This document shows, one piece after another, positions 2,546 to 22,392 of a DNA stretch of 41,545 nt. Source of the stretch: a virus; the IMG/VR virus record IMGVR_UViG_3300042922_000482, positions 1-41,545 of that record; one strand, written 5' to 3'. The notes under the pieces are model-generated. The model worked only from the letters and a program-made list of their open reading frames with translations. It ran no database searches and was not told the origin of the DNA. How positions within the stretch are numbered: position 1 is the first letter of the stretch; each line of letters begins with the position of its first letter. The position numbers and the translations under genes are program-made.

Positions 2546-3751
2546 GTGGCTGGTTACCTCGTCGGCGGGCGGTTCCTCTCCGGAGAGATCACCCTGCGCA
2601 AGCTCGTCCCCGGGTCCTGTGGCGTCGAGCTCACGCTCAACGCGCCCGAGACCATCCGGGCGCAGCTGCCGCTGCCGTATGTGGACCCGGCCACCGACGT
2701 CGCCCTCGACCTGCCGAACCAGCTCCTGCCGCAGCGGGACTTCATCGGCTGGGTTGAGAACGACGTGCTGCTGGCCGCTGGCCAGATTCAGGGCGACCCG
2801 TTCTCGTTCCCCAGCTCGTCGACACTGAACGCGGCCGGCGCGTGGGACTACTTCCGCAAGCGCACGGTGATGCCGGTGCTCACGACGGCGCAGCTGCCTT
2901 CCGACGTCACGTCGAAGTGGACGAACACGTCGCTGCGCACGATCGCGAAGCGGGTCGTGCAGCAGGCGTGCTCCTGGCCGTCCGCGGGCATCCCGATCGA
3001 CTACGAACCCGACTTCCCCGGGACGAACGAACGCGAGTACCCCGGCGTCGACCTCATGTGGGTCGCCGAGGCGCTCACCAACCTCACCGAGGTCGACGGC
3101 GGCCCCGACATCGCACTCCGCCCGAAGCTCGACGGTAACCGTCACGTGCGCTGGGATCTCCTGACCGGCGACCCGGACCTGACCCAGGGCGGCGCGGACC
3201 ACTACTGGGACGTCTCAGCCCCCGGCCCGTACGCGTCGATCTCCGACCTCGACCGTGACGGCCGCGACCTGGCGACGCACGCGTGGGGCGTCGGTGCGAC
3301 GAACGACGAGACGCAGCTCCGCCTCGAGGCGAAAGCGTCGTCGCCAGCGCTCACCGATGCCGGCTTCCCGATGATGGAGACGGTCGAGAACCGCAACAGT
3401 GTGCTCCGCGCGGAGACGCTGCAGGCGTATGTCAACGAGGCGGTCGTCCGCTACTCGGCATTCACCGAGACCTTCACGCTCAAGGTCAAGCGCGACGAGG
3501 ACCCGAAGCTCGGGACCTACTGGCCGGGGGACTGGGCCAAGATCAAGGTCGCCGACACCGCCCGCGTCCCTGCCGGCACGTACCGAGTCCGCATCATCCG
3601 GATCTCCTTCGACGCGGAGGGTGACGTCACGCTGCAGTGCTCACCCGAACGCATCGCGGGCGGCTACCCGGTGCCCGCGAGCGACCGCTCGTGGCTCTCC
3701 AACCAGCTGCGTGCCCTGCAGGGCCGCATCGACGAAACGAACAGGGGGTAG
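2546..3751 (+). CDS. Minor tail protein, probable tail hub / baseplate-like protein
   Basis: 401 residues, GTG start ten bases after the preceding stop with GAGGGGG upstream. The protein is beta-rich. Its opening (an FLSGEITL element, then a 'VELTLNAP' stretch) and later sections resemble hub/Tal-type minor tail proteins of actinobacterial siphoviruses, the family loosely called Gp37-like in phage ReqiPepy6. That is recollection of pattern, not a search. It ends in a polar segment (SNQLRALQGRIDE) that may be a short helix for assembly. No peptidase motif is visible. It lies after the lysis cassette rather than directly after the distal tail protein, which is unusual. Confidence 0.65.
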   Translation: MAGYLVGGRFLSGEITLRKLVPGSCGVELTLNAPETIRAQLPLPYVDPATDVALDLPNQLLPQRDFIGWVENDVLLAAGQIQGDPFSFPSSSTLNAAGAWDYFRKRTVMPVLTTAQLPSDVTSKWTNTSLRTIAKRVVQQACSWPSAGIPIDYEPDFPGTNEREYPGVDLMWVAEALTNLTEVDGGPDIALRPKLDGNRHVRWDLLTGDPDLTQGGADHYWDVSAPGPYASISDLDRDGRDLATHAWGVGATNDETQLRLEAKASSPALTDAGFPMMETVENRNSVLRAETLQAYVNEAVVRYSAFTETFTLKVKRDEDPKLGTYWPGDWAKIKVADTARVPAGTYRVRIIRISFDAEGDVTLQCSPERIAGGYPVPASDRSWLSNQLRALQGRIDETNRG

Positions 3752-3756
3752 GCGGC

Positions 3757-4188
3757 ATGCCTACGATCACAGGTCCGATCCTCGACTCCGCGGGCCGCCC
3801 CGCGAACGGTCTCCTGCGCGTGCGTGCGTCGCGACCGTTCGACGTCGGCGCCGGCCACGTGACCCAGGCCGTCGGCATGGCCACCGTCCGCGACGGCATC
3901 CCGTACCTCACGACCGGATCGTGGTCCCTCCCGACGACGCCGGATGGTGTCTATCTCGAGCTCGAGCAGGACCTCGACGGCGAGCAGGTCAACAAGTTCA
4001 CCCTGGCCGTCCCCGACGTCCAGACGATGTCCTACAGCGAGCTGCTCTTCAACCGCGGCGGCGGCGAAGGCGGCGCGAACCCCTACTGGTGGGACCTCAC
4101 CGGCGGGCTCGACTTCCCTCCCGAAGCCGTCGACGGCGACTTCGGCTACGACACCGTAACGGGCGACTATTGGAGATACGAACGATGA
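3757..4188 (+). CDS. Minor tail protein / fibre adaptor, 143 aa
   Basis: The ATG at 3757 has AGGGGG eight bases upstream, and the TGA overlaps the ATG of the fibre gene (ATGA). The first half (ITGPILDSAGRPANGLLRVR) looks like the small beta-sandwich 'substitution' domain often found at the base of phage fibres. The C-terminus has a Gly-rich patch (RGGGEGGANP) and aromatic residues ending DTVTGDYWRYE, a motif often seen where a fibre begins. Tight coupling to the collagen-like fibre gene suggests it anchors that fibre to the tail tip. Confidence 0.6.
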   Translation: MPTITGPILDSAGRPANGLLRVRASRPFDVGAGHVTQAVGMATVRDGIPYLTTGSWSLPTTPDGVYLELEQDLDGEQVNKFTLAVPDVQTMSYSELLFNRGGGEGGANPYWWDLTGGLDFPPEAVDGDFGYDTVTGDYWRYER

Positions 4189-5240
4189 CGAAGATCCTGC
4201 TCGGAAACCTGAAAGGTCCGAAGGGCGACAAAGGAGACAAGGGCGACAGCGTCAAGGGTGACCCGGGTCCTGCCGGGCCGAACACCGTACCGACCAACGA
4301 GGCGATCGCCGCCGCGGTAGCTGCTGAGGGGCCGGCCCGGGCTGCACTAGACGCCGCGATCGGTGAACAGATCGAGGCGGCTCTTGAGGACTATACGCCC
4401 GGGGCTGCTCCCCTCATTGTGGACGCAGGATCTGACTTGTCCACCCCGCGCCCTGCATACTCTGGCAAGGTTTGGTGGTACATCACCGACCCGGATGGAG
4501 TCCCGCTGTTCGCGATCGACCGCGATGAGGTCTTCCCCTATGAGGATCTTCCGGTCCCGGACCCCACTGCCTTCCTCGACACCTACACGGGGCTCCTGTC
4601 CCGGTGGCGGGCCGACGATCTCAGCGCTTCGAGCGGATCCATCGCTACCGTGCCTTCACGCGCCGGCTCCGCGGCTGTCGCTCTCACCGCGCCGGCCGCT
4701 CAGCCCACCCTGGAGACCCTGAGCAGTCACAAGGTGCTGAAGTTCACGGCGTCGGCGTCGCAGTACATGCAGGCCGCGTTCGCCGCGTTTAACAGCCCGT
4801 TCACGGTCGTCGGCGTCATCGACGCAAACACGGCAGGCCGCAACCCGTTCGGATCCGGCGGGTCGGGCGCCAGCTACTTCGGCATGGCCGTCAACGGCGG
4901 CGGAACTACCATCCGGCTGAACACCTACGCGGACCTCGGTGGCGGAGTGTCAGCGCCTTGGAGCCCGTCGACCGGACTCGTGGCTTTTGTCGCGGTCTAC
5001 AGCCCCGGCACGGAAAACAGCCGCCTGTACTACAACGCGCTGACCCCGGTGACGGGAACCACACACCCGAGTACGCACGCGGTCGACTCCACGTTCCGGG
5101 TCGCGTCGAGCTACCTCAACACGTACATGGATCTGTCGCTGGCTGACCTTGCATTCATCTCTGGTGCAGTCCCGGACGCCGACGCTAAGACCATGCTGCA
5201 GGCGCTCGCGAACTACTTCGGTCTGACTCTGGGGGCTTGA
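4185..5240 (+). CDS. Tail fibre: collagen-like stem plus lectin-like head
   Basis: 351 residues. After MTKILLGNL comes a collagen-like segment of Gly-X-Y triplets (about residues 11-32, rich in GDKGD and GPAGP), which would trimerise as a stem. A short Ala-rich helical region follows. From about residue 140 to the end the sequence looks like a concanavalin/LamG-type jelly roll: a WRADD element, FTVVGVIDA, YFGMAVNGGG, and a final helix (MLQALANYFG). This fits a host-recognition fibre that binds surface glycan. Base composition is somewhat less extreme than in the capsid genes, as expected for a fast-evolving, exchanged receptor-binding gene. Confidence 0.75.
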   Translation: MTKILLGNLKGPKGDKGDKGDSVKGDPGPAGPNTVPTNEAIAAAVAAEGPARAALDAAIGEQIEAALEDYTPGAAPLIVDAGSDLSTPRPAYSGKVWWYITDPDGVPLFAIDRDEVFPYEDLPVPDPTAFLDTYTGLLSRWRADDLSASSGSIATVPSRAGSAAVALTAPAAQPTLETLSSHKVLKFTASASQYMQAAFAAFNSPFTVVGVIDANTAGRNPFGSGGSGASYFGMAVNGGGTTIRLNTYADLGGGVSAPWSPSTGLVAFVAVYSPGTENSRLYYNALTPVTGTTHPSTHAVDSTFRVASSYLNTYMDLSLADLAFISGAVPDADAKTMLQALANYFGLTLGA

Positions 5241-5241
5241 T

Positions 5242-6138
5242 ATGGCGTGGCCTGACGAGACATCTTCCACTGCTGGCACTACACAGTCAGGCGCGGCGTT
5301 CACCGCGGTCACGATCAACCCGCTGGGCGGGGACGACAATGCGCAGATGGTCGTCCCCGCGGGGGTGCAGGCCGGTGATCCGGTGACGGTCCTCATCGCT
5401 TCGCACGGACACGGGGGTTCCTACCTGACGTTCCAGAATGATGCGAACTCGCGAACCGTCCGTGACATGGCGATCGACGCTGGCTGGGTGTTCATCTCGC
5501 CAGACATGCACGGAAACCGGTGGGGGAACCCGACCGCGGTTGCTGACGTGGTCCGCGTTCGTGACTACGCGGCCGCCCTGTTCGACGTTGGGAAGCTGCA
5601 CCTGTACGGGCAGTCGATGGGCGGCATGGCGATGATGCAGGTCGTTGCTCAAGGGGTTCTCCCTGAGGTGGAACGGCTTGCGGTGATCGCGCCGGCGTGC
5701 AACCTGGGACTAATCAACAACACCGAGTCGACTCTGTGGTCGACCCTGCGTTCCGCTTACGGGGCCGCAACCGATGGGTCAGACTTCGACACCAGGGTCC
5801 TGCCCTACGACCCTGTCGCGAACCACAGTGCGTCGCAGTACGCAGGGATTCGGTTCAAGGTGTGGGCGTCGAACTCCGACGCCCTCATCCCGAAGGTGGG
5901 ACATATCGACGCGTTCGTGGACGCAGGCCGGACAGTCGAGATGGAGTCTTTCGAACTCGTCACCGTCACCGGTGGGCACCTGTCCGCGGATCACTACCGG
6001 ACAGCCGAGTTCATGTCGTTCTTCGCGGATGAACCGGTTGCGCCGAAGTTCGTGCGGAGAGTCCTTGCCCGCTACATCCTCATCGGGCGGCAGCGTCACC
6101 GGATAGCTTCGGGTCCTCCCCGAGCCATAGTTGGATGA
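5242..6138 (+). CDS. Alpha/beta hydrolase (esterase-like), candidate tail-associated enzyme
   Basis: 298 residues starting one base after the fibre stop, so part of the tail operon. The alpha/beta-hydrolase signature is clear: an HGHGG oxyanion-hole motif at residues 55-59, the nucleophile elbow GQSMGG with Ser125, a plausible acid at Asp213 (NSDALIP) and catalytic His246 (GGH). There is no signal peptide. The fold covers esterases, acetyl-xylan-type deacetylases and lipases; the substrate cannot be read from sequence. Position directly after the receptor-binding fibre suggests a structural or tail-carried esterase that trims surface polymer. The basic last ~35 residues (RRVLARYILIGRQRHR) are not part of the usual fold and may mediate attachment. 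Confidence 0.8.
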   Translation: MAWPDETSSTAGTTQSGAAFTAVTINPLGGDDNAQMVVPAGVQAGDPVTVLIASHGHGGSYLTFQNDANSRTVRDMAIDAGWVFISPDMHGNRWGNPTAVADVVRVRDYAAALFDVGKLHLYGQSMGGMAMMQVVAQGVLPEVERLAVIAPACNLGLINNTESTLWSTLRSAYGAATDGSDFDTRVLPYDPVANHSASQYAGIRFKVWASNSDALIPKVGHIDAFVDAGRTVEMESFELVTVTGGHLSADHYRTAEFMSFFADEPVAPKFVRRVLARYILIGRQRHRIASGPPRAIVG

Positions 6139-6153
6139 GAGGCAGGCGCTCGA

Positions 6154-6336
6154 TCAGCTCGTGTACGCGGCGCGAACCATTTGAGCGAAGACGTCGCCGT
6201 ACTCTGCCGCGACTTCTTCATGTGACCGCGCTGCGGCCCAGTCGGGACGCTTGAACTCGGCCGCGGCCGCATCCTGTCGCTCAATGGCCTCGTACTCGAC
6301 GGTCAGCTGCAGTAGGCGCTGGGCAAGCTCGGTCAT
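6154..6336 (-). CDS. Small acidic helical protein, 60 aa
   Basis: The start is taken at the ATG at 6336 because a TACACT hexamer (6344-6349 on the complement) lies seven bases upstream, the spacing of a leaderless actinobacterial promoter, and no Shine-Dalgarno sequence is present. The product is Ala/Glu-rich and mostly helical with no membrane segment. The gene is divergent from the flippase gene and shares a 52-base intergenic region holding a palindrome. The family is not recognised. It converges on the hydrolase gene with 15 bases between stops. Confidence 0.6.
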   Translation of the reverse strand: MTELAQRLLQLTVEYEAIERQDAAAAEFKRPDWAAARSHEEVAAEYGDVFAQMVRAAYTS

Positions 6337-6343
6337 GAAGCTG

Positions 6344-6349
6344 AGTGTA
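6344..6349 (-). promoter_or_regulatory. -10 box TACACT for the 60-aa gene
   Basis: On the complement TACACT is followed by seven bases and then ATG, which predicts a leaderless transcript. No recognisable -35 element is seen. Confidence 0.5.
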
Positions 6350-6351
6350 CG

Positions 6352-6390
6352 CACAGTGGGGGACTGCCCGCGCGGTAGTCTCCCACTGTG
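6352..6390. promoter_or_regulatory. Inverted repeat over the flippase start; candidate operator or start-occluding hairpin
   Basis: CACAGTGGGGGACT (6352-6365) and AGTCTCCCACTGTG (6377-6390) are inverted copies matching at 13 of 14 positions. The one mismatch becomes a G-U pair in RNA. The right arm covers the TAGTCT -10 box and the GTG start codon of the flippase gene. The site could be a shared operator for both divergent genes. Confidence 0.6.
6376..6381 (+). promoter_or_regulatory. -10 box TAGTCT for the flippase gene
   Basis: TAGTCT lies six bases before the GTG at 6388, the leaderless spacing. There is no Shine-Dalgarno sequence before this GTG. The box lies inside the inverted repeat at 6352-6390. 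Confidence 0.5.
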
Positions 6391-7887
6391 CCCGAGCCAA
6401 AACGACACCGTGGCATCTCCGGCGTCCTGAGCAGCTCGGCCACCGGACTTCTCTCGATCGCCACGGGCATTCTGCTGCTCCCGCTGATCATCTCGACGGT
6501 CGGCAGCGGCCCGTACGGCGTATGGCTCGTCCTGATCGCCGTCGCCGCGTACCTCCAACTCACCGACCTCGGCATCGGTTCAGCGCTCATCCACTTCGGA
6601 TCGCGCACCCGCGGCGGCGCCGAGTTCGACGCGACGCCGGGGGGCATGCTCGGCGCAGCGCTGCTGTGGAACGCCGTGGCGGGTGTCGTCGGCGTTACCG
6701 GATTCGGGATCGCCGCGACCTTATACGTCTCGTCGGCGGATGCCGCTGCCGTTGTCGACCCCGCGACCGGACATGCGCTCGCGCTGCTCGGGGCGGTTGC
6801 GCTCAGCAGCATCCTGCTGAAACCGTTCGACGCGGTCCTCACCGGTGCCGGGGAGCTCCCGGTCGAACGACGGAACATGTTCATCGGTCTGAGCGCCCGG
6901 ATCGTCGTCACGCTGCTCGGATGCCTCGTCTTCGAGTCGCTCCTGGTTGTCGCGATCGCCGAGGTTGTCGCGATCGTTCTCCCGTCAATCATCTCGATGA
7001 CCATCGTTCTGCGCCGCATCACCCGGCCGCACTGGTCTCGAGCGACATTCGCGACGCTGCGCTTCATGTGGCGGTTCAGTCTCCGCTCGTTCGCGACCGC
7101 ATCGGTGGGCATGCTCATCCTGCAGGTCGGCACGGTGCTCGTCGCGATCGTCGCGACCCCTAGCGCCGTCACCTACTTCACTGCCGCCTTCCGGGTGTAC
7201 ACCGGAGTTCGGCAGGTTTTCTCGTGGACGACCGACCCCTTCAAATCGATGCTCGCTCGCGTGTTTGTGGGCGACCATCGGCAGGGGCGCCAGATCGTCA
7301 TGACCCTCGGGTTCATCTCGCTGCTGGTCGCCGGCACAGGATGCGCGATCATCATCCTGCTCGCGGAGGATTTCACGCGGATCTGGCTGGGAGCCGACGT
7401 TCCGACCGGGACCATCGCGCTCACGATCATGATCCTCCTGAGTGGCATCGTCCTCAACTCGATCCACGTCCAGTTCGTCCCCGCCGCCGACGCACTCGGC
7501 CGCCCCGCCGCGTTCCTCGGGCTTCAGGTCCTGTGGCTCGTGCTGTACGTCGTGCTCGGACTCTGGCTCGGCTCGCTCTGGGGAACCGTCGGCGTCGCTG
7601 CCGCATTCGCGCTGCCGCTGCTCATCGTCGAACCGCTCTACGTGATGCGCGCCCGCGCGGTCCTCGGCTTCTCGACAACCGAGTGGCTGAGGAACACCAT
7701 CCGGCCGGCCGCCTCCATCGTCGTTCCGCCGGCTCTCATCGGATCTGCGATAGCGCTCCTCTTCCCGAGCATCGGCAATCTCGTCGGCGCCACCGTCGTC
7801 GCGGTGTCCGTGGTCGGCACGCTCTACGCCTTGCGCCGACGCCCACCTGTCTCCAATGTCCCCGAACTGCTACGAACTGAGCTGTGA
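6388..7887 (+). CDS. Polysaccharide flippase, Wzx/MOP-exporter type
   Basis: 499 residues with about a dozen hydrophobic helices along the whole length. The N-terminal pattern (SSSATGLLSIATGILLLPLI, then GPYGVWLVL and LTDLGIGSALIHF) is characteristic of the oligosaccharide-flippase (RfbX/Wzx) branch of the MOP exporter superfamily. A cytoplasmic turn near residue 155 and a positive C-terminus (LRRRPP) fit the usual topology. The family moves lipid-linked glycan units across the plasma membrane. A full-length copy with an intact frame on a phage is unusual and suggests lysogenic conversion of a surface glycan. It has its own predicted promoter and ends at a strong bidirectional terminator, so it is a self-contained moron. 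Base use is slightly less GC-extreme than the capsid genes. Confidence 0.85.
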   Translation: MPEPKRHRGISGVLSSSATGLLSIATGILLLPLIISTVGSGPYGVWLVLIAVAAYLQLTDLGIGSALIHFGSRTRGGAEFDATPGGMLGAALLWNAVAGVVGVTGFGIAATLYVSSADAAAVVDPATGHALALLGAVALSSILLKPFDAVLTGAGELPVERRNMFIGLSARIVVTLLGCLVFESLLVVAIAEVVAIVLPSIISMTIVLRRITRPHWSRATFATLRFMWRFSLRSFATASVGMLILQVGTVLVAIVATPSAVTYFTAAFRVYTGVRQVFSWTTDPFKSMLARVFVGDHRQGRQIVMTLGFISLLVAGTGCAIIILLAEDFTRIWLGADVPTGTIALTIMILLSGIVLNSIHVQFVPAADALGRPAAFLGLQVLWLVLYVVLGLWLGSLWGTVGVAAAFALPLLIVEPLYVMRARAVLGFSTTEWLRNTIRPAASIVVPPALIGSAIALLFPSIGNLVGATVVAVSVVGTLYALRRRPPVSNVPELLRTEL

Positions 7888-7895
7888 ACAACGAC

Positions 7896-7939
7896 AACGC
7901 CCCGGCGCCCCTCCATCACGGAGCGGATGCCGGGGCGTT
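7896..7939. terminator. Bidirectional rho-independent terminator
   Basis: AACGCCCCGGC (7896-7906) pairs perfectly with GCCGGGGCGTT (7929-7939), an 11-bp stem with a 22-base loop followed by TTTCG. It lies between the convergent stops of the flippase (7887) and acyltransferase (7946) genes and can serve both. Confidence 0.85.
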
Positions 7940-7945
7940 TCGTCG

Positions 7946-9022
7946 TTAGGCGGGAAGCGTCGCCGCCCGGTCTGGGACGGCCTTCGCGGCAGCCTTCGCA
8001 TCGAGCTGCCGCCTCCACAGCTGAACGGGCTTCTCGACGATCCACCAACTCAGTGTGGCGGCAAGGATCGTCAGCACGATCGATGCGACTGGTGCCCACG
8101 CCGGCGCCGGGTCCCACACCATCCACGTGACGATCGGGTAGTTCCAGAGGTACGCGGCGTAGGAGATCGTTCCAAGCCATAGCAGGGGGGCGAGAGCCTT
8201 TGTCGGGAGGTCGCGCCAGGCGCTCCAGACGTAGATGAGGACAACGGTGACGAGCGCGACTGCGGGCCCGACGGTGTAGTAAGTCCACGCTTCGTCGATG
8301 TCCTCGCGGACGAACGTGAGCGCGATCAGAGCGGTGAACGCGCCCCATCCGGCGATGTGTCGGGCGACTGGCGTGGCGGGGATGAGGCGGCGGAGGTTCC
8401 CCTCCCACAGCTTGGCCGCGGCGCCGATCAGCATCGCGATTGCCCAGGAGCTCGGGAACGGGTAGATGCGGTAGACGTCGGGTTCGGCGACGAACACGGT
8501 TGCCGTGAGGACCAGCATGATGGCGACCGCCGAGCCGGCCACGAGAGCACCCACTCGCTTCCACCGGATGCCGAGTGTGAGCAGGATGGGCCACACGAGG
8601 TAGAACTGCTCCTCCGTTGCCAGCGTCCACAGGTGCCCGATCGCCGCGGTGCCGTGGTCGTACGGGAGGTTGCCGGTGTAGGTGATGCCGGTGAAGAAGA
8701 CGCGGGCGACGCCCTCGAGGTCGCCGTCGCCGAGAGGGTTCCAGGTGAGCATCACCGCGGCGACGACGACGAGAAGAGTGAGCATGGGCGGGAACAGGCG
8801 TAGCGCACGGTTCCGGTAGAACCGCCCGTACCGCACGCGCCCGTACTTCGAGATGTCCGCGGTCAGCAGTCCCGTGATGAGGTACCCGCTGAGGGTGAAG
8901 AAGGCGACGACGCCGACGATCCCGGCGATGCCGCCGGATTCTGGCCAGGCGTGGCGGATGAGGACGAAGGCGATGGCGATGCCGCGGATCAGGTCGAGGC
9001 CTGCGATGCGTCCGTGTGTCAC
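7946..9022 (-). CDS. Membrane O-acyltransferase, acyltransferase family 3 (OafA-like)
   Basis: 358 residues from the GTG at 9022. Family signatures: an N-terminal LIRGIAIAFVLIRH (residues 11-24; the R and H of the conserved first helix), VAFFTLSGYLITGLL, YGRFYRNRALRLFPP, and HLWTLATEEQFYLVWP, which is close to the family consensus. About ten hydrophobic helices follow. These enzymes transfer acetyl or other short acyl groups to surface polysaccharides. The start follows the stop of the 99-residue gene by only four bases, so the two may be coupled. A TACAGT box also lies six bases upstream, so a leaderless transcript is possible. With the flippase it forms a surface-glycan modification pair. 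An open extension upstream of 9022 is Arg/Pro-rich and unlikely to be translated. Confidence 0.9.
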   Translation of the reverse strand: MTHGRIAGLDLIRGIAIAFVLIRHAWPESGGIAGIVGVVAFFTLSGYLITGLLTADISKYGRVRYGRFYRNRALRLFPPMLTLLVVVAAVMLTWNPLGDGDLEGVARVFFTGITYTGNLPYDHGTAAIGHLWTLATEEQFYLVWPILLTLGIRWKRVGALVAGSAVAIMLVLTATVFVAEPDVYRIYPFPSSWAIAMLIGAAAKLWEGNLRRLIPATPVARHIAGWGAFTALIALTFVREDIDEAWTYYTVGPAVALVTVVLIYVWSAWRDLPTKALAPLLWLGTISYAAYLWNYPIVTWMVWDPAPAWAPVASIVLTILAATLSWWIVEKPVQLWRRQLDAKAAAKAVPDRAATLPA

Positions 9023-9026
9023 GCGC

Positions 9027-9326
9027 TCACTGTAGCGGTGGGATTGGCGCTCCGTGGCGTGGGATGCCTCGCCGACGTCGGCCCTCGGCGACCCAGGTCG
9101 CGGTTCCGGGGAGCATGCGCAGAGCAGTCGCGAGCGTGCTGGTCTCGGCGGCGTCGAAATAGCCGGCCCAGATCCCCGCCGCTTGCGCCAGGACGTCGTC
9201 ACGCCCGTCCGCTGCAGCGATGAGCTCGGCGATGACTGGTGCGGGGTCGCGGGTGTACTGGTTGCGGGCGCAGATCGCGGACAGCGTCACGTCCAGCATG
9301 GTGTCCTGGTCGAGCGGTGATCTCAT
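9027..9326 (-). CDS. Hypothetical protein, 99 aa
   Basis: The ATG at 9326 is chosen because GAGAAAGGGG lies upstream on the complement, a good ribosome binding site. The product is soluble, helical in its first 70 residues (around ARNQYTRDPAPVIAEL and AGIWAGYF), with an Arg-rich linker before a Pro-rich tail. It resembles small orphan proteins common in actinophages, but I cannot name a family. A TACGAT box (9362-9367 on the complement) may be its promoter. It is transcribed towards, and probably with, the acyltransferase gene. Confidence 0.65.
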   Translation of the reverse strand: MRSPLDQDTMLDVTLSAICARNQYTRDPAPVIAELIAAADGRDDVLAQAAGIWAGYFDAAETSTLATALRMLPGTATWVAEGRRRRGIPRHGAPIPPLQ

Positions 9327-9600: not shown

Positions 9601-9840
9601 ATGCCCACCACCGCTGAACTGCTCGACTTCGAGGCTGCTCATCCGACGTGGACCGGCAAGAAGGACGAGCTCTGCATTTCGGTGCTCGGGCTGCGGCCGG
9701 CCCGGTACTACGTGCTGTTGCACCGTGCGGTCGAGACGCGCGAGGCGCTTGAGCATGACCCGGTGACGACGCACCGCGTGCTGCGGCGTCTCGCTCGCGC
9801 GAACGCGTCGCGCCGTGCCGGCGGTCGGCTCGCGTCGTGA
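9601..9840 (+). CDS. DUF3263-like protein
   Basis: 79 residues. The pattern LLDFEAAHP-W...KK-E-...LGL-PARYY-LLHR...ALEHDP..THRVLRRLARAN matches what I know of DUF3263, a short helical family found in actinobacteria and their phages, likely a helix-turn-helix that senses or binds DNA. The function is uncharacterised. GGAG lies eight bases before the ATG; GAGAAT six bases before could instead be a degenerate -10 box. It is the last gene before attP. Confidence 0.75.
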   Translation: MPTTAELLDFEAAHPTWTGKKDELCISVLGLRPARYYVLLHRAVETREALEHDPVTTHRVLRRLARANASRRAGGRLAS

Positions 9841-9975: not shown

Positions 9976-10014
9976 AAACGGGGGTTACGGGTTCAAGTCC
10001 CGTAGTCGGCTCCA
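9976..10014. other. attP core: 3' end of a host tRNA gene
   Basis: The segment reproduces the 3' part of a tRNA: T-stem ACGGG (9987-9991), T-loop TTCAAGT (9992-9998), T-stem CCCGT (9999-10003), acceptor strand AGTCGGC (10004-10010), discriminator T and CCA (10012-10014). There is no 5' half, D-arm or anticodon here, so it is not a tRNA gene. It lies next to the integrase gene between identical arm repeats. Integration would restore the host tRNA. The GCCGACT/AGTCGGC acceptor suggests a tRNA-Thr type gene, but the isotype is uncertain. Confidence 0.85.
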
Positions 10015-10072: not shown

Positions 10073-10093
10073 CCATGGTTTACCCATGGTTTT
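10073..10093. repeat. attP right arm: tandem CCATGGTTT pair
   Basis: Exact second copy of the repeat at 9865-9885, with units at 10073 and 10084. It abuts the integrase stop codon. Confidence 0.8.
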
Positions 10094-11253
10094 CAGGTGA
10101 ACAGCTTCGACAGAACAAGTGCGCTCGCCGGGCCGCGATGGACCTCGTCGGCGTAGTGCGCCTCCGTCGTCTTCTTATCCTCGTGGCCGAGCTGATCCTT
10201 CGCGGCCTCGATCCCGAGCTCGTCGCGGATGACGGTCGCCACGGTCTTGCGGAAGCTCTTCGGGGTGATGCCTGCGTACGGCGTCCCCGCGAGCGCGGCG
10301 CGCCAGGTCGTGCGGTAGTTGTTCGGGTGTCGGAAGGTGCCGACCGCTGACGGGAAGACGAACTCGGTGTACGACGCGACGCGGCGGCGCATGAGCATCT
10401 CGACGACCTCCGTCGGCAGCTCGAGCTCGCGGTAGCCGGCGTCGGTCTTCGTGAAGTCCTGGACGAAGAATCGCTCGTCGCGGTCCTGCGCGATCGTGCG
10501 CCGCACGACGACGCGATGCTTCGCGAGGTCGACCGCGTCCCATTGCAGCGCGAGCAGCTCGCCCGTGCGCATGCCGGTCCCGATGATCATGTCCGTCGTG
10601 TCGAGCAGCGTGCTCGCGCGTGCGAGTCGGCGGCGCCGGTCGTTCTCGGGGCGTGGCTCGGTACCTGCGTCCCACTGCTCGAATCGGGACCGGATGCCGC
10701 GGACTACCTCGAGGTCAGGCGCAGCTGCGCGTCGGGTGCGCTTCGGGCGCTCGGGCTTTGGAACGTCGGCCATCGGGTTCGGCCGGACGGCGCCGTGCCG
10801 CGCCGCGAGCGTGAACATCCCGCGCAGGACGACGTGCACCGTCGCCGCGGTTCCGTGACCGGACGACGTCGCGACGGCCAAGATGAAGCGATCGAGCTTC
10901 GGGACGGTCGCCTCCTGCAGTCGCACTGACCCGAGGCCGCGGTCGATGTGCTTGATCGCATTCCGGTAGGTACGGATCGATCCCTCGGCCAGCCGGGCAC
11001 GGGAGTCGATCCACTTCTGCGCGAGCTCCGAGACGGTCGATGTTCCGGTGATCTCGTCGCTCGCCGGCGCCAGCCGTGCTTTCAGGGCGCGCACGAGGTT
11101 CCGCTCGGACTCTGCCGCCGTCTTGCCCTGGCGCTGCATCAGCCGCGTGACACCGTCGGCGTCGCGGTAATAGGCGAACGCGGTCGGCTTACCGTCGACC
11201 GTCGTGCGTCGGATGCGGCCCCACGTCTCGAGCTCGAGAGGCGGGCGTGCCAT
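10093..11253 (-). CDS. int: Tyrosine integrase
   Basis: 386 residues from the ATG at 11253, the last gene of the leftward lysogeny operon, overlapping the ImmA-like gene by one base. An N-terminal arm-binding domain (residues 1-60) is followed by a SAM-like core-binding domain (about 70-160: SELAQKWIDS, RTYRNAIKHID) and the catalytic domain. Catalytic residues: Arg229 (GTGMRTGELLALQW), Lys269 (FTKTDAGYR), Arg335 in PKSFRKT, His357 (LGHEDKKTTEAHY) and nucleophile Tyr367. Box II has Lys332 where His is usual (HxxR becomes KxxR), a variation I believe is tolerated in actinophage integrases. The attP site lies directly downstream. Upstream in-frame extensions are Arg-rich and not supported. Confidence 0.95.
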   Translation of the reverse strand: MARPPLELETWGRIRRTTVDGKPTAFAYYRDADGVTRLMQRQGKTAAESERNLVRALKARLAPASDEITGTSTVSELAQKWIDSRARLAEGSIRTYRNAIKHIDRGLGSVRLQEATVPKLDRFILAVATSSGHGTAATVHVVLRGMFTLAARHGAVRPNPMADVPKPERPKRTRRAAAPDLEVVRGIRSRFEQWDAGTEPRPENDRRRRLARASTLLDTTDMIIGTGMRTGELLALQWDAVDLAKHRVVVRRTIAQDRDERFFVQDFTKTDAGYRELELPTEVVEMLMRRRVASYTEFVFPSAVGTFRHPNNYRTTWRAALAGTPYAGITPKSFRKTVATVIRDELGIEAAKDQLGHEDKKTTEAHYADEVHRGPASALVLSKLFT

Positions 11254-11705
11254 CAGTGCACCGTCTCGCGGTGATGCCACATGCCGGCGCCCATGCGGGC
11301 CTGCACGTAGACGGTGTCGCCGAAGCGAGACAGGATGCGCTGGAACGCTTCGACGATGTCGGCCGTGACGTCGAGTTCGAGCGCGATCGCGTCGGGGTGC
11401 CCGGCGTGGATCGATTCGGCGAGCTTGTAGGCGTCGATATCGATGAGCCGAAGCGCTGCCCACTCATCCGCACGGCGTTCCATCTTCGCGTTCGCCGGAC
11501 CGAACATGCTGGGCTCGTCGCCGAAAACAGCGTGCGCGCACTCGTGCGCGAGCACGGAGCGGTGCAGCCGCCGAGGCATCCCGGGCTGCAGTCGGATTAG
11601 GCGGCGGTGGTGGAGGTACTCACCGTCGCGGTCCTCGTCGAGCGCGACGTAGCGGACGCGCACGCCGAGGTCGCGCAGTGTCTGGCGTATGTGCTCGTCG
11701 GTCAC
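11253..11705 (-). CDS. ImmA/IrrE-family metallopeptidase
   Basis: 150 residues. The HExxH zinc motif is HECAHA at residues 54-59, preceded by LIRLQPGMPRRLHRSVLAHE, the usual strand-helix arrangement of ImmA/IrrE proteins. A further acidic ligand probably lies in MERRADEWAA around residue 75-80, also typical. In ICEBs1 and related elements ImmA cleaves the adjacent ImmR repressor to trigger induction. Here the gene overlaps the repressor upstream by four bases (ATGA) and the integrase downstream by one, so the same logic is likely. The target is inferred, not shown. Confidence 0.9.
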   Translation of the reverse strand: MTDEHIRQTLRDLGVRVRYVALDEDRDGEYLHHRRLIRLQPGMPRRLHRSVLAHECAHAVFGDEPSMFGPANAKMERRADEWAALRLIDIDAYKLAESIHAGHPDAIALELDVTADIVEAFQRILSRFGDTVYVQARMGAGMWHHRETVH

Positions 11706-12115
11706 GTGTCGGCGTCCTCTCCGCGGTCGCGGCCCTTCTTCTTGGCGATGGCCCGATCATCTTGCGCGGAACCTCGGACACCGAAGCGCCCGACGGTGAC
11801 GTTGCTCGGCGCTCGGCGTTCAACGCGATCGAGGAGCTCGCGTGCCAGCTCGACCTCCGAGAGATCCTCGGCGCCGATCTTCACCTCGCGGATGTTCGCC
11901 TCGTCGTCGGTGATGTACTCCGACTCGGCCAGCGCCTCGATCACAGAACGGCCGTAGGCGCGAGCGAACTTCAGGACGAACTCGACGGCGGGCCGGCTGC
12001 CCTGCTTCCAACGCGTCACGTTCGACTTGTCGATGCCGACGACGTCGGCGATCTCCTTCGCCTGCACGTCGCCAGCGACGACCTGTACGTACTTCCACCA
12101 GCGGGTCTCGTTCAC
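11702..12115 (-). CDS. Immunity repressor (helix-turn-helix)
   Basis: 137 residues from the GTG at 12115, chosen because TACAGT lies seven bases upstream with TTGCGC 17 bases further, and because residues upstream are Cys-rich noise. The HTH spans about residues 17-45 (QAKEIADVVGIDKSNVTRWKQ), followed by a helical region (VEFVLKFARAYGRSVIEAL). The acidic C-terminal half contains EDLSEVELARELLDRVE and ends in a highly charged, probably disordered tail (KKKGRDRGED), which may be where the neighbouring peptidase acts. It heads the leftward repressor - peptidase - integrase operon and faces the Cro-like gene across the operator region. Confidence 0.85.
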   Translation of the reverse strand: MNETRWWKYVQVVAGDVQAKEIADVVGIDKSNVTRWKQGSRPAVEFVLKFARAYGRSVIEALAESEYITDDEANIREVKIGAEDLSEVELARELLDRVERRAPSNVTVGRFGVRGSAQDDRAIAKKKGRDRGEDADT

Positions 12116-22209: not shown

Positions 22210-22392
22210 TCAGGGCTTGACGTTCGCGGCCTTCATCGCGCCGACGTGGCTCATCCCGAGCGCGCGGCCGATGGCGGGCCAGGAGTGGCCGGCGTCGCGC
22301 GCCTCGGCGATGAGCTCGGCGCGGCGTGCGGGCATGGCGTTCATGCGCGCCTGGAAGGCGGCGAGGGTCTCGAGGGTTTCGTCGGTGGCCAT
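22210..22392 (-). CDS. Small helix-turn-helix regulator, 60 aa
   Basis: From the ATG at 22392, which has TACAGT six bases upstream on the complement and no Shine-Dalgarno sequence (leaderless pattern). The sequence RRAELIAEARDAGHSWPAIGRALGMSHVGAMKAA is a compact helix-turn-helix. It is the only leftward gene inside the rightward early operon. It faces the 98-residue gene across two TGTAAC palindromes, so an autoregulated local switch is likely. Confidence 0.75.
   Translation of the reverse strand: MATDETLETLAAFQARMNAMPARRAELIAEARDAGHSWPAIGRALGMSHVGAMKAANVKP

Follow-up and report, generated by a model that had tools for sequence, protein, structure and literature searches.

Prophages that convert the serotype of their host are a textbook theme in Gram-negative bacteria. 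Whether temperate phages of Gram-positive bacteria carry a comparable set of genes is the question raised by a locus in the IMG/VR virus record IMGVR_UViG_3300042922_000482, which was analysed over its whole length of 41,545 bases (here called the window). In this record, a cassette was identified with the order receptor-binding fibre, virion-type esterase, Wzx-like flippase, AT3 acyltransferase, phage attachment site (attP) and integrase. The cassette is likely to represent a lysogenic-conversion slot in an actinobacterial phage, with the layout known from P22, epsilon34 and Sf6, in which a tailspike gene is followed by conversion genes, attP and int. Directly visible in the DNA are this layout, the origin of the flippase from a host, a pattern extending over the same slot in related phages, and signatures of promoters and of a terminator. 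The genes for hydrolase, flippase and acyltransferase, which had been pointed out in an earlier note on this DNA, are all intact open reading frames of 298, 499 and 358 residues. Two aspects had been missed there, namely the host cluster from which the flippase originates and the nature of the slot as a hotspot.

The Phage and Its Attachment Site

The first and last 127 bases of the record are identical, which closes it to a circle with a true length of 41,418 bases. The temperate phage represented by the window is circular and complete, coding for a full siphovirus and in addition for an integrase, an ImmA-like protein and a repressor. Nucleotide matches to named phages are short and nearly all of them are to Microbacterium phages. 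The closest integrated relative found is a prophage in Microbacterium kunmingense (L055), with a minor tail protein that is 90% identical. The phage is a temperate phage of Microbacterium, a group of soil bacteria. Within the cassette, the GC content at third codon positions of the hydrolase, flippase and acyltransferase genes is lower than that of the tail genes.

The attP core of 26 bases (about 9988..10013, plus strand) corresponds to the 3' end of tRNA-Thr(TGT) and was identified in identical form in the tRNA-Thr of two Microbacterium genomes. It is followed by the gene for a tyrosine integrase (10093..11253, minus strand), which matches PF00589 with an expectation value (E) of 2e-12 and phrog_1 with E 2e-46. 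Since attP lies between the cassette and the integrase gene, the cassette would be located in the integrated prophage at the end opposite to the integrase, and the lysogenic-conversion position assigned to these genes in the earlier note is upheld by the tRNA-Thr site.

The Flippase and Its Chromosomal Relative

The flippase gene (6388..7887, plus strand) codes for a protein of 499 residues, for which no Pfam match was obtained. With the NCBIfam profile WZX_like (NF041503), E is 1e-10, but the score of 41 bits is far below the cut-off of 300, so that the assignment as a Wzx protein is drawn from the cluster context of its homologue. About 13 hydrophobic segments were counted in a rough Kyte-Doolittle scan, within the 12-14 helices of Wzx flippases. 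The gene is complete, as had been proposed before, and with regard to its profile score it is designated Wzx-like here.

Among 367 Microbacterium genomes, the best relative was the wzx gene of genome G209, the product of which is 82% identical over the full length of 499 residues. In G209, wzx is part of a cluster with genes for an initiating sugar transferase (PF02397, E 5e-69), glycosyltransferases, a pyruvyltransferase-like protein, a Wzy_C protein and an AT3-SGNH protein, and without phage genes. This association with sugar transferases and Wzy is a property of the G209 homologue and not of the phage. On the nucleotide level, the chromosomal gene matches positions 6186-7742 of the window with 80.9% identity, beginning about 200 bases before the start codon. 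In the upstream stretch of host origin (6186..6387, plus strand), the leaderless-type -10 box TAGTCT-N6-GTG is conserved, and the 46 bases directly preceding the start codon, including this box, are almost identical in the G209 copy. Thus, the flippase appears to have been captured from a surface-polysaccharide cluster of a host together with its promoter region. The ratio of nonsynonymous to synonymous substitutions (dN/dS) between the two copies is 0.16, which shows constraint overall on both copies without distinguishing the lineages. The flippase query gave no match to a phage or a viral contig, IMG/VR included, so that at the sensitivity of that search the flippase is rare in viral contigs.

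Two trivial explanations for this similarity were rejected. Contamination of the assembly by host DNA does not agree with the phage genes present on both sides of the flippase in a circular record, and it is also countered by prophages of cultured genomes, in which the same slot is occupied by other glycan genes. The G209 gene is not a prophage gene itself, being located in a chromosomal polysaccharide cluster without phage genes; the sole match of the G209 region to the rest of the window is a family-level match to the acyltransferase.

A near-perfect inverted repeat was also identified at 6350-6393, over the start codon and the -10 box of the flippase gene (hairpin of -37.9 kcal/mol, z -4.9). 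It is largely conserved in the chromosomal copy and may represent an operator or a site of translation control. Another chromosomal flippase, 42% identical to the one in the window and adjoined by a pyruvyltransferase gene, is present at G352:C1:176942-178441, in the genome of the L101 prophage introduced below.

The Slot in Related Phages

Relatives were searched for by the minor tail protein and not by the cargo. The gene for this protein (2546..3751, plus strand; PHROG 1885, E 1e-56) forms the conserved left flank of the cassette together with the gene for a small tail-region protein (3757..4188, plus strand). Matches were obtained in two viral contigs (L053 and L054), in the M. kunmingense prophage (L055) and in 20 further Microbacterium genomes. 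In the three close relatives L053, L054 and L055, both flank proteins are 81-90% identical to those of the window (83-90% for the minor tail protein and 81-86% for the small protein).

The next gene codes for the receptor-binding fibre (4185..5240, plus strand), with weak matches to tail-fibre PHROGs and a conserved collagen-like N-terminus of about 67 residues. Identity to the fibres of the close relatives is 44-61% over the first 66-73 residues, after which no sequence is shared. Beyond this point nothing is common to the window and these relatives until the small genes before the integrase, except for a partial match of 33% between the hydrolase and an esterase of L053. On the right side, the slot is bounded by a small conserved gene (9027..9299, minus strand), with homologues occupying the corresponding position in L054, L086 and L101, and in many relatives by a small DUF3263-type gene (9601..9840, plus strand; phrog_5316, E 1e-11), the L055 homologue of which matches DUF3263. 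Between these sharp boundaries, the C-terminal part of the fibre and the cargo are exchanged, while the flanking genes are conserved.

The cargo differs from phage to phage. L053 carries genes for a Wzy-like protein and for an esterase with an N-terminal membrane segment; the Wzy-like assignment is based on homologues that lie in glycan clusters, since an AlphaFold model computed without an alignment was useless (predicted local distance difference test, pLDDT, of 48). In L054, a GT4 glycosyltransferase (PF13439, E 1e-18) and a trypsin-like protein are encoded, and in L055 a Wzy_C protein (E 1e-11). In more distant prophages, the slot holds AT3 genes (L085 and L093) or genes for a Wzy_C-type protein and a pyruvyltransferase (L101; PS_pyruv_trans, E 1e-24). 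The nearest relatives of several of these proteins are encoded in chromosomal polysaccharide clusters, with identities of 51% for the L053 Wzy, 47-50% for the L055 Wzy, 63% for the L101 pyruvyltransferase and 55% for the L085 AT3 protein. This suggests that the other cargo is also derived from hosts.

Sixteen slots of relatives were bounded on both sides by the boundary markers, and six of them contained cargo of at least 250 residues. By hand count, nine of the ten large cargo genes in these bounded slots concern surface glycans; in this count transposases and lysins were left out, the L053 esterase was included, and L093, which has no right marker, and L107 were not considered. The chance of such a result is about 2e-11 under a background of 5% glycan genes, a value that was assumed, the background having been measured for AT3 genes only (4-12 per genome). 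As judged from these comparisons, the slot is a hotspot for the exchange of glycan genes. Genes for initiating sugar transferases and Wzy_C proteins were identified in all five genomes checked (four hosts of lysogens and G209), so that a Wzx/Wzy pathway which could be altered by such cargo would be present in the hosts.

The slot may also hold genes for defence, as the trypsin-like protein of L054 (L054:5239-6090, minus strand) matches the PADLOC candidate defence family PDC-S45 with E 3e-13.

Promoter and Terminator Signatures

Leaderless genes of actinobacteria are characterized by the sequence TANNNT shortly upstream of the start codon. This signature was found for 7 of 12 cargo genes and for none of 63 structural genes (Fisher 4e-7), compared to 15 of 144 host genes. 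In the count of cargo genes, the Wzy gene of L101 is doubtful; the gene of L107, a prophage found via its acyltransferase, is included and was negative. Since structural genes are mostly located inside operons, the contrast means that the cargo has promoters of its own, and not more than that. In the window, the signature is present in six genes, namely those for the flippase, the acyltransferase, two small slot proteins, one small protein encoded elsewhere, and the prophage repressor (11702..12115, minus strand). The repressor gene is the one that is necessarily switched on in a lysogen. A sigma-70 scan of the region found no promoter.

The flippase and acyltransferase genes are convergent, and a strong hairpin lies between them (7888..7948, both strands), with folding energies of -41.6 kcal/mol on the plus strand and -44.1 kcal/mol on the minus strand (z -7.2 and -6.8). 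The predicted fold makes it a probable bidirectional terminator. A similar hairpin is located 3' of the cargo gene in L055 (z -7.2).

Of these six genes, the small one located elsewhere has 60 codons (22210-22392, minus strand) and lies inside the replication region, which is encoded on the plus strand. It is possibly expressed in the lysogen.

The Acyltransferase and the Probable Tail Hydrolase

The gene at 7946..9022 (minus strand; leaderless-type promoter signature TACAGT-N6-GTG) codes for a clear AT3 membrane O-acyltransferase of 358 residues, of the OafA/Oac type without SGNH domain. The protein matches the whole PF01757 domain with E 9e-31 (107 bits, with a cut-off of 31) and the "O-antigen acetylase" family phrog_6705 with E 8e-40. 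The AT3 motifs R/K-X10-H and RxxR have been defined previously (PMC9558356). Both are present, as R13-X10-H24 in the first membrane helix and as R72-A-L-R75 in the first loop, and the OafA-type identity given in the earlier note is confirmed by these motifs and the PF01757 match. The enzyme is predicted to act on a surface glycan. AT3 genes are annotated in the same place, after the tail genes, in several Gordonia and Arthrobacter phages.

The alpha/beta-hydrolase of 298 residues (5242..6138, plus strand) is encoded one base 3' of the fibre stop codon. It contains the nucleophile motif GQSMGG, and the triad S125/D213/H246 is invariant across seven homologues, in agreement with the previous description of an intact Ser-Asp-His triad directly behind the fibre. 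The match to Pfam Abhydrolase_6 (25 bits) is slightly under the gathering cut-off of 26.3, while PHROG 10356, "virion structural protein", is matched with E 6e-20. With a profile built from the seven homologues, solved lipases and esterases were retrieved (E 5e-8), and Foldseek also returned esterases (E 3e-8) for a structure model of low confidence (pLDDT 55). No relative was found in IMG/VR at the sensitivity of that search, and the protein is rare in viral contigs there.

The homologues of the hydrolase are all located in tail regions. In Arthrobacter phage ArV2 it corresponds to the C-terminal domain of gp24, and in Faja, Seahorse and Barco to gp32, gp33 and gp32, respectively. ArV2 gp24 was identified by mass spectrometry in CsCl-purified virions, with 11 peptides and a coverage of 38% (PMC4205034). 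Because of this homologue, the window hydrolase is probably also part of the virion, and the place in the particle proposed for it in the earlier note gains support by homology. The two halves of ArV2 gp24 correspond to Faja gp31 and gp32, so that an arrangement of fibre and esterase as neighbours would be equivalent to a fusion. The fibre of the window was considered as a counterpart of the remaining part of ArV2 gp24, and no sequence link was found; its residues 76-123 match gp31 of Gordonia phage Barco (40%, E 7.5e-7).

In Arthrobacter phage Seahorse (L137:18624-21532), the tail protein gp33 with its C-terminal esterase domain is encoded tail to tail with a homologous esterase of the lipoprotein type, gp34, on the opposite strand. 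With the esterase of the L053 slot, gp34 shares 44% identity.

Comparison to Known Systems

In full, the gene orders of P22 and Sf6 consist of receptor-binding enzyme, conversion genes, attP and integrase, and the conversion genes of P22 and epsilon34 are gtrABC. The same order of functions is seen in the window. For Shigella phage Sf6, an O-acetyltransferase gene of the AT3 family (oac) adjoins int, and the acetylation blocks the phage's own tailspike enzyme (PMC9558356). Salmonella phage epsilon34 carries gtr genes, its attP is part of a tRNA gene directly 3' of int, and the receptor domains of its tailspike are exchanged between relatives (PMC2629481). By gene identities and position, the analogy to O-antigen-modifying prophages of Gram-negative bacteria drawn in the earlier note is supported. 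In contrast to these phages, the host is a Gram-positive actinobacterium without O antigen, the tail enzyme is a predicted esterase and not an endoglycosidase, and the cargo includes a host-derived Wzx-like flippase, with Wzy, GT4 or pyruvyltransferase genes in relatives.

Prophage-encoded Wzy polymerases of Acinetobacter baumannii and Pseudomonas aeruginosa (Wzy-beta) change the linkage or the form of a polysaccharide (PMC13228068, PMC4815439). Here, also a step of the Wzx/Wzy pathway would be supplied by a prophage. However, these Gram-negative examples concern the polymerase only, while the step encoded in the window is the flippase, combined with an acyltransferase. Coliphage G7C contains an O-antigen deacetylase in the virion, the tailspike gp63.1, the activity of which is required for infection (PMC10743462). 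The window hydrolase, a predicted esterase, is compared to gp63.1 in function only, and G7C has a Gram-negative host and no prophage acyltransferase.

Like the window, Arthrobacter phage Faja contains before its integrase gene a homologous tail esterase (gp32, 29% identical) and an AT3 protein encoded on the opposite strand (gp34). It also has a Wzy_C-type membrane protein (gp35, below cut-off), but no flippase. These genes are annotated in GenBank, and no discussion of them as a system was found in the open-licence literature. The statement that the combination had not been described in actinophages therefore holds for the flippase, which has no match in phages or viral contigs, and not for tail esterase and AT3 protein, which stand side by side in the Faja annotation. 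Of the three genes, the co-occurrence of which in related phages the earlier note had proposed to check, esterase and AT3 were found together in Faja only and the flippase in none.

New in the cassette are a host-derived Wzx-like flippase in a phage, and different steps of one pathway being swapped in one slot, together with a receptor-binding domain and in Gram-positive actinobacteria. No description of such a slot was found in open-licence papers. The cassette would be evidence for the same strategy having arisen or been retained in Gram-positive hosts, with a host source cluster identifiable at 82% identity, and for the possibility of conversion through a flippase, of which no phage example turned up. 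To our knowledge, the receptors of most actinophages are not known, and for each phage the cargo offers a hint at the glycan to which its fibre binds.

Proposed Role of the Cassette

In the virion, the exchangeable C-terminal part of the fibre would bind a surface polysaccharide of the host, and during adsorption the adjacent tail esterase would remove an acyl group from the bound polysaccharide. After integration into the tRNA-Thr gene, the flippase and acyltransferase genes, each with its own promoter, would be transcribed during repression of the phage. The host-derived flippase could then change the kind or the number of the lipid-linked repeat units exported, and the AT3 enzyme could acylate the exported glycan. 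The surface of the lysogen would differ from that of an uninfected cell, resulting in poor adsorption of this and other phages. Expression in the lysogen, the chemical change and superinfection exclusion are the parts of this scheme which we infer. Across relatives, the slot would swap single pathway steps, provided by flippase, polymerase, glycosyltransferase, pyruvyltransferase, acyltransferase or esterase.

In a broader form, to which we give slightly less than even confidence, temperate phages of Microbacterium and related actinobacteria have a slot reserved for single Wzx/Wzy steps captured from host clusters, which change hands along with the receptor-binding part of the fibre; each phage would thereby possess the key to one coat and the means to replace it after integration. 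If true, prophages would drive the diversity of surface glycans in a Gram-positive group, which has not been described there as far as could be found.

Several points weigh against a conversion slot. The low confidence of the hydrolase model and the low NF041503 score of the flippase have been given above. Ten of the 16 bounded slots contain no large cargo, so that the trait would be optional; the dN/dS between phage and host copies mixes the selection of both lineages; and the effect of one foreign flippase on the surface is not obvious.

Alternative Explanations

The cargo might serve the lysogen in another way, for example, in biofilm formation, desiccation, predation or lysozyme resistance, with phage exclusion being incidental. 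This has perhaps a minor share of the probability. AT3 enzymes have many roles at bacterial surfaces (PMC9558356), and an altered capsule or wall glycan affects many traits. However, exchange of the cargo goes along with that of the receptor-binding part of the fibre, and the PDC-S45 candidate in the slot of one relative points to competition between phages.

The earlier note had further suggested that esterase and acyltransferase share one substrate, which would make them a matched pair: adsorption would be blocked by an acyl group that the AT3 enzyme of the prophage attaches, and the esterase of the virion would take off this same group. Both enzymes concern acyl groups on surface glycans, and in Faja a homologue of the tail esterase is combined with AT3 and Wzy_C-type genes. 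Among the phages examined, though, the two are combined in the window and in Faja alone, and usually one gene is present without the other. An AT3 gene but no detected tail esterase was found for Murp, LonelyBoi, BritBrat, Peas, L085, L093 and L107; conversely, ArV2, Barco and Seahorse have the tail esterase but no detected AT3 gene. By stripping its own mask, a phage would gain no self-exclusion, and the tail esterase of coliphage G7C needs the acetyl group for infection (PMC10743462). A matched pair is therefore considered improbable. Preferred is the reading in which the esterase would act on the coat met at entry and the prophage would subsequently change that coat.

Just as improbable, or marginally more so, is a function of the hydrolase in the lysogen or at the stage of lysis instead of in the virion. 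The homologous esterases of L053 and Seahorse (gp34) are encoded on the opposite strand and have an N-terminal membrane or lipoprotein segment, in the style of lysogen-expressed proteins. The window protein, in contrast, has no such segment and its gene no promoter signature, lying on the same strand as the fibre gene and one base behind it; it resembles Barco gp32, which is annotated as a minor tail protein, Faja gp32 and the C-terminal domain of the virion-detected ArV2 gp24.

That the flippase is passive host DNA, acquired by imprecise excision or recombination and without function for the phage, is very improbable: its uniqueness to this phage and its high similarity to the chromosomal gene, upstream region included, would fit, but it is an intact frame with a dN/dS of 0.16 inside the phage, bordered by conserved phage genes, with a retained promoter and a strong terminator 3' of the gene, and passive capture would not lead one to expect that relatives fill the slot with other genes of this pathway.

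Additional Observations in Other Prophages

In a prophage with a contractile tail (IMGVR_UViG_2844625742; L108:3744-6243), an AT3 gene, the product of which is 41% identical to that of the window, lies beside a gene for a MOP-flippase-like protein with 10 transmembrane segments. The latter matches no family and was not counted as a second flippase; possibly, a second pair of flippase and acyltransferase is present here in an unrelated phage. In the prophage of Microbacterium genome G307 (L092:5095-7194), the last tail protein contains a glycerophosphodiester phosphodiesterase domain (PF03009, E 5.5e-11), and by this domain it is possibly a tail enzyme that cleaves teichoic acid.

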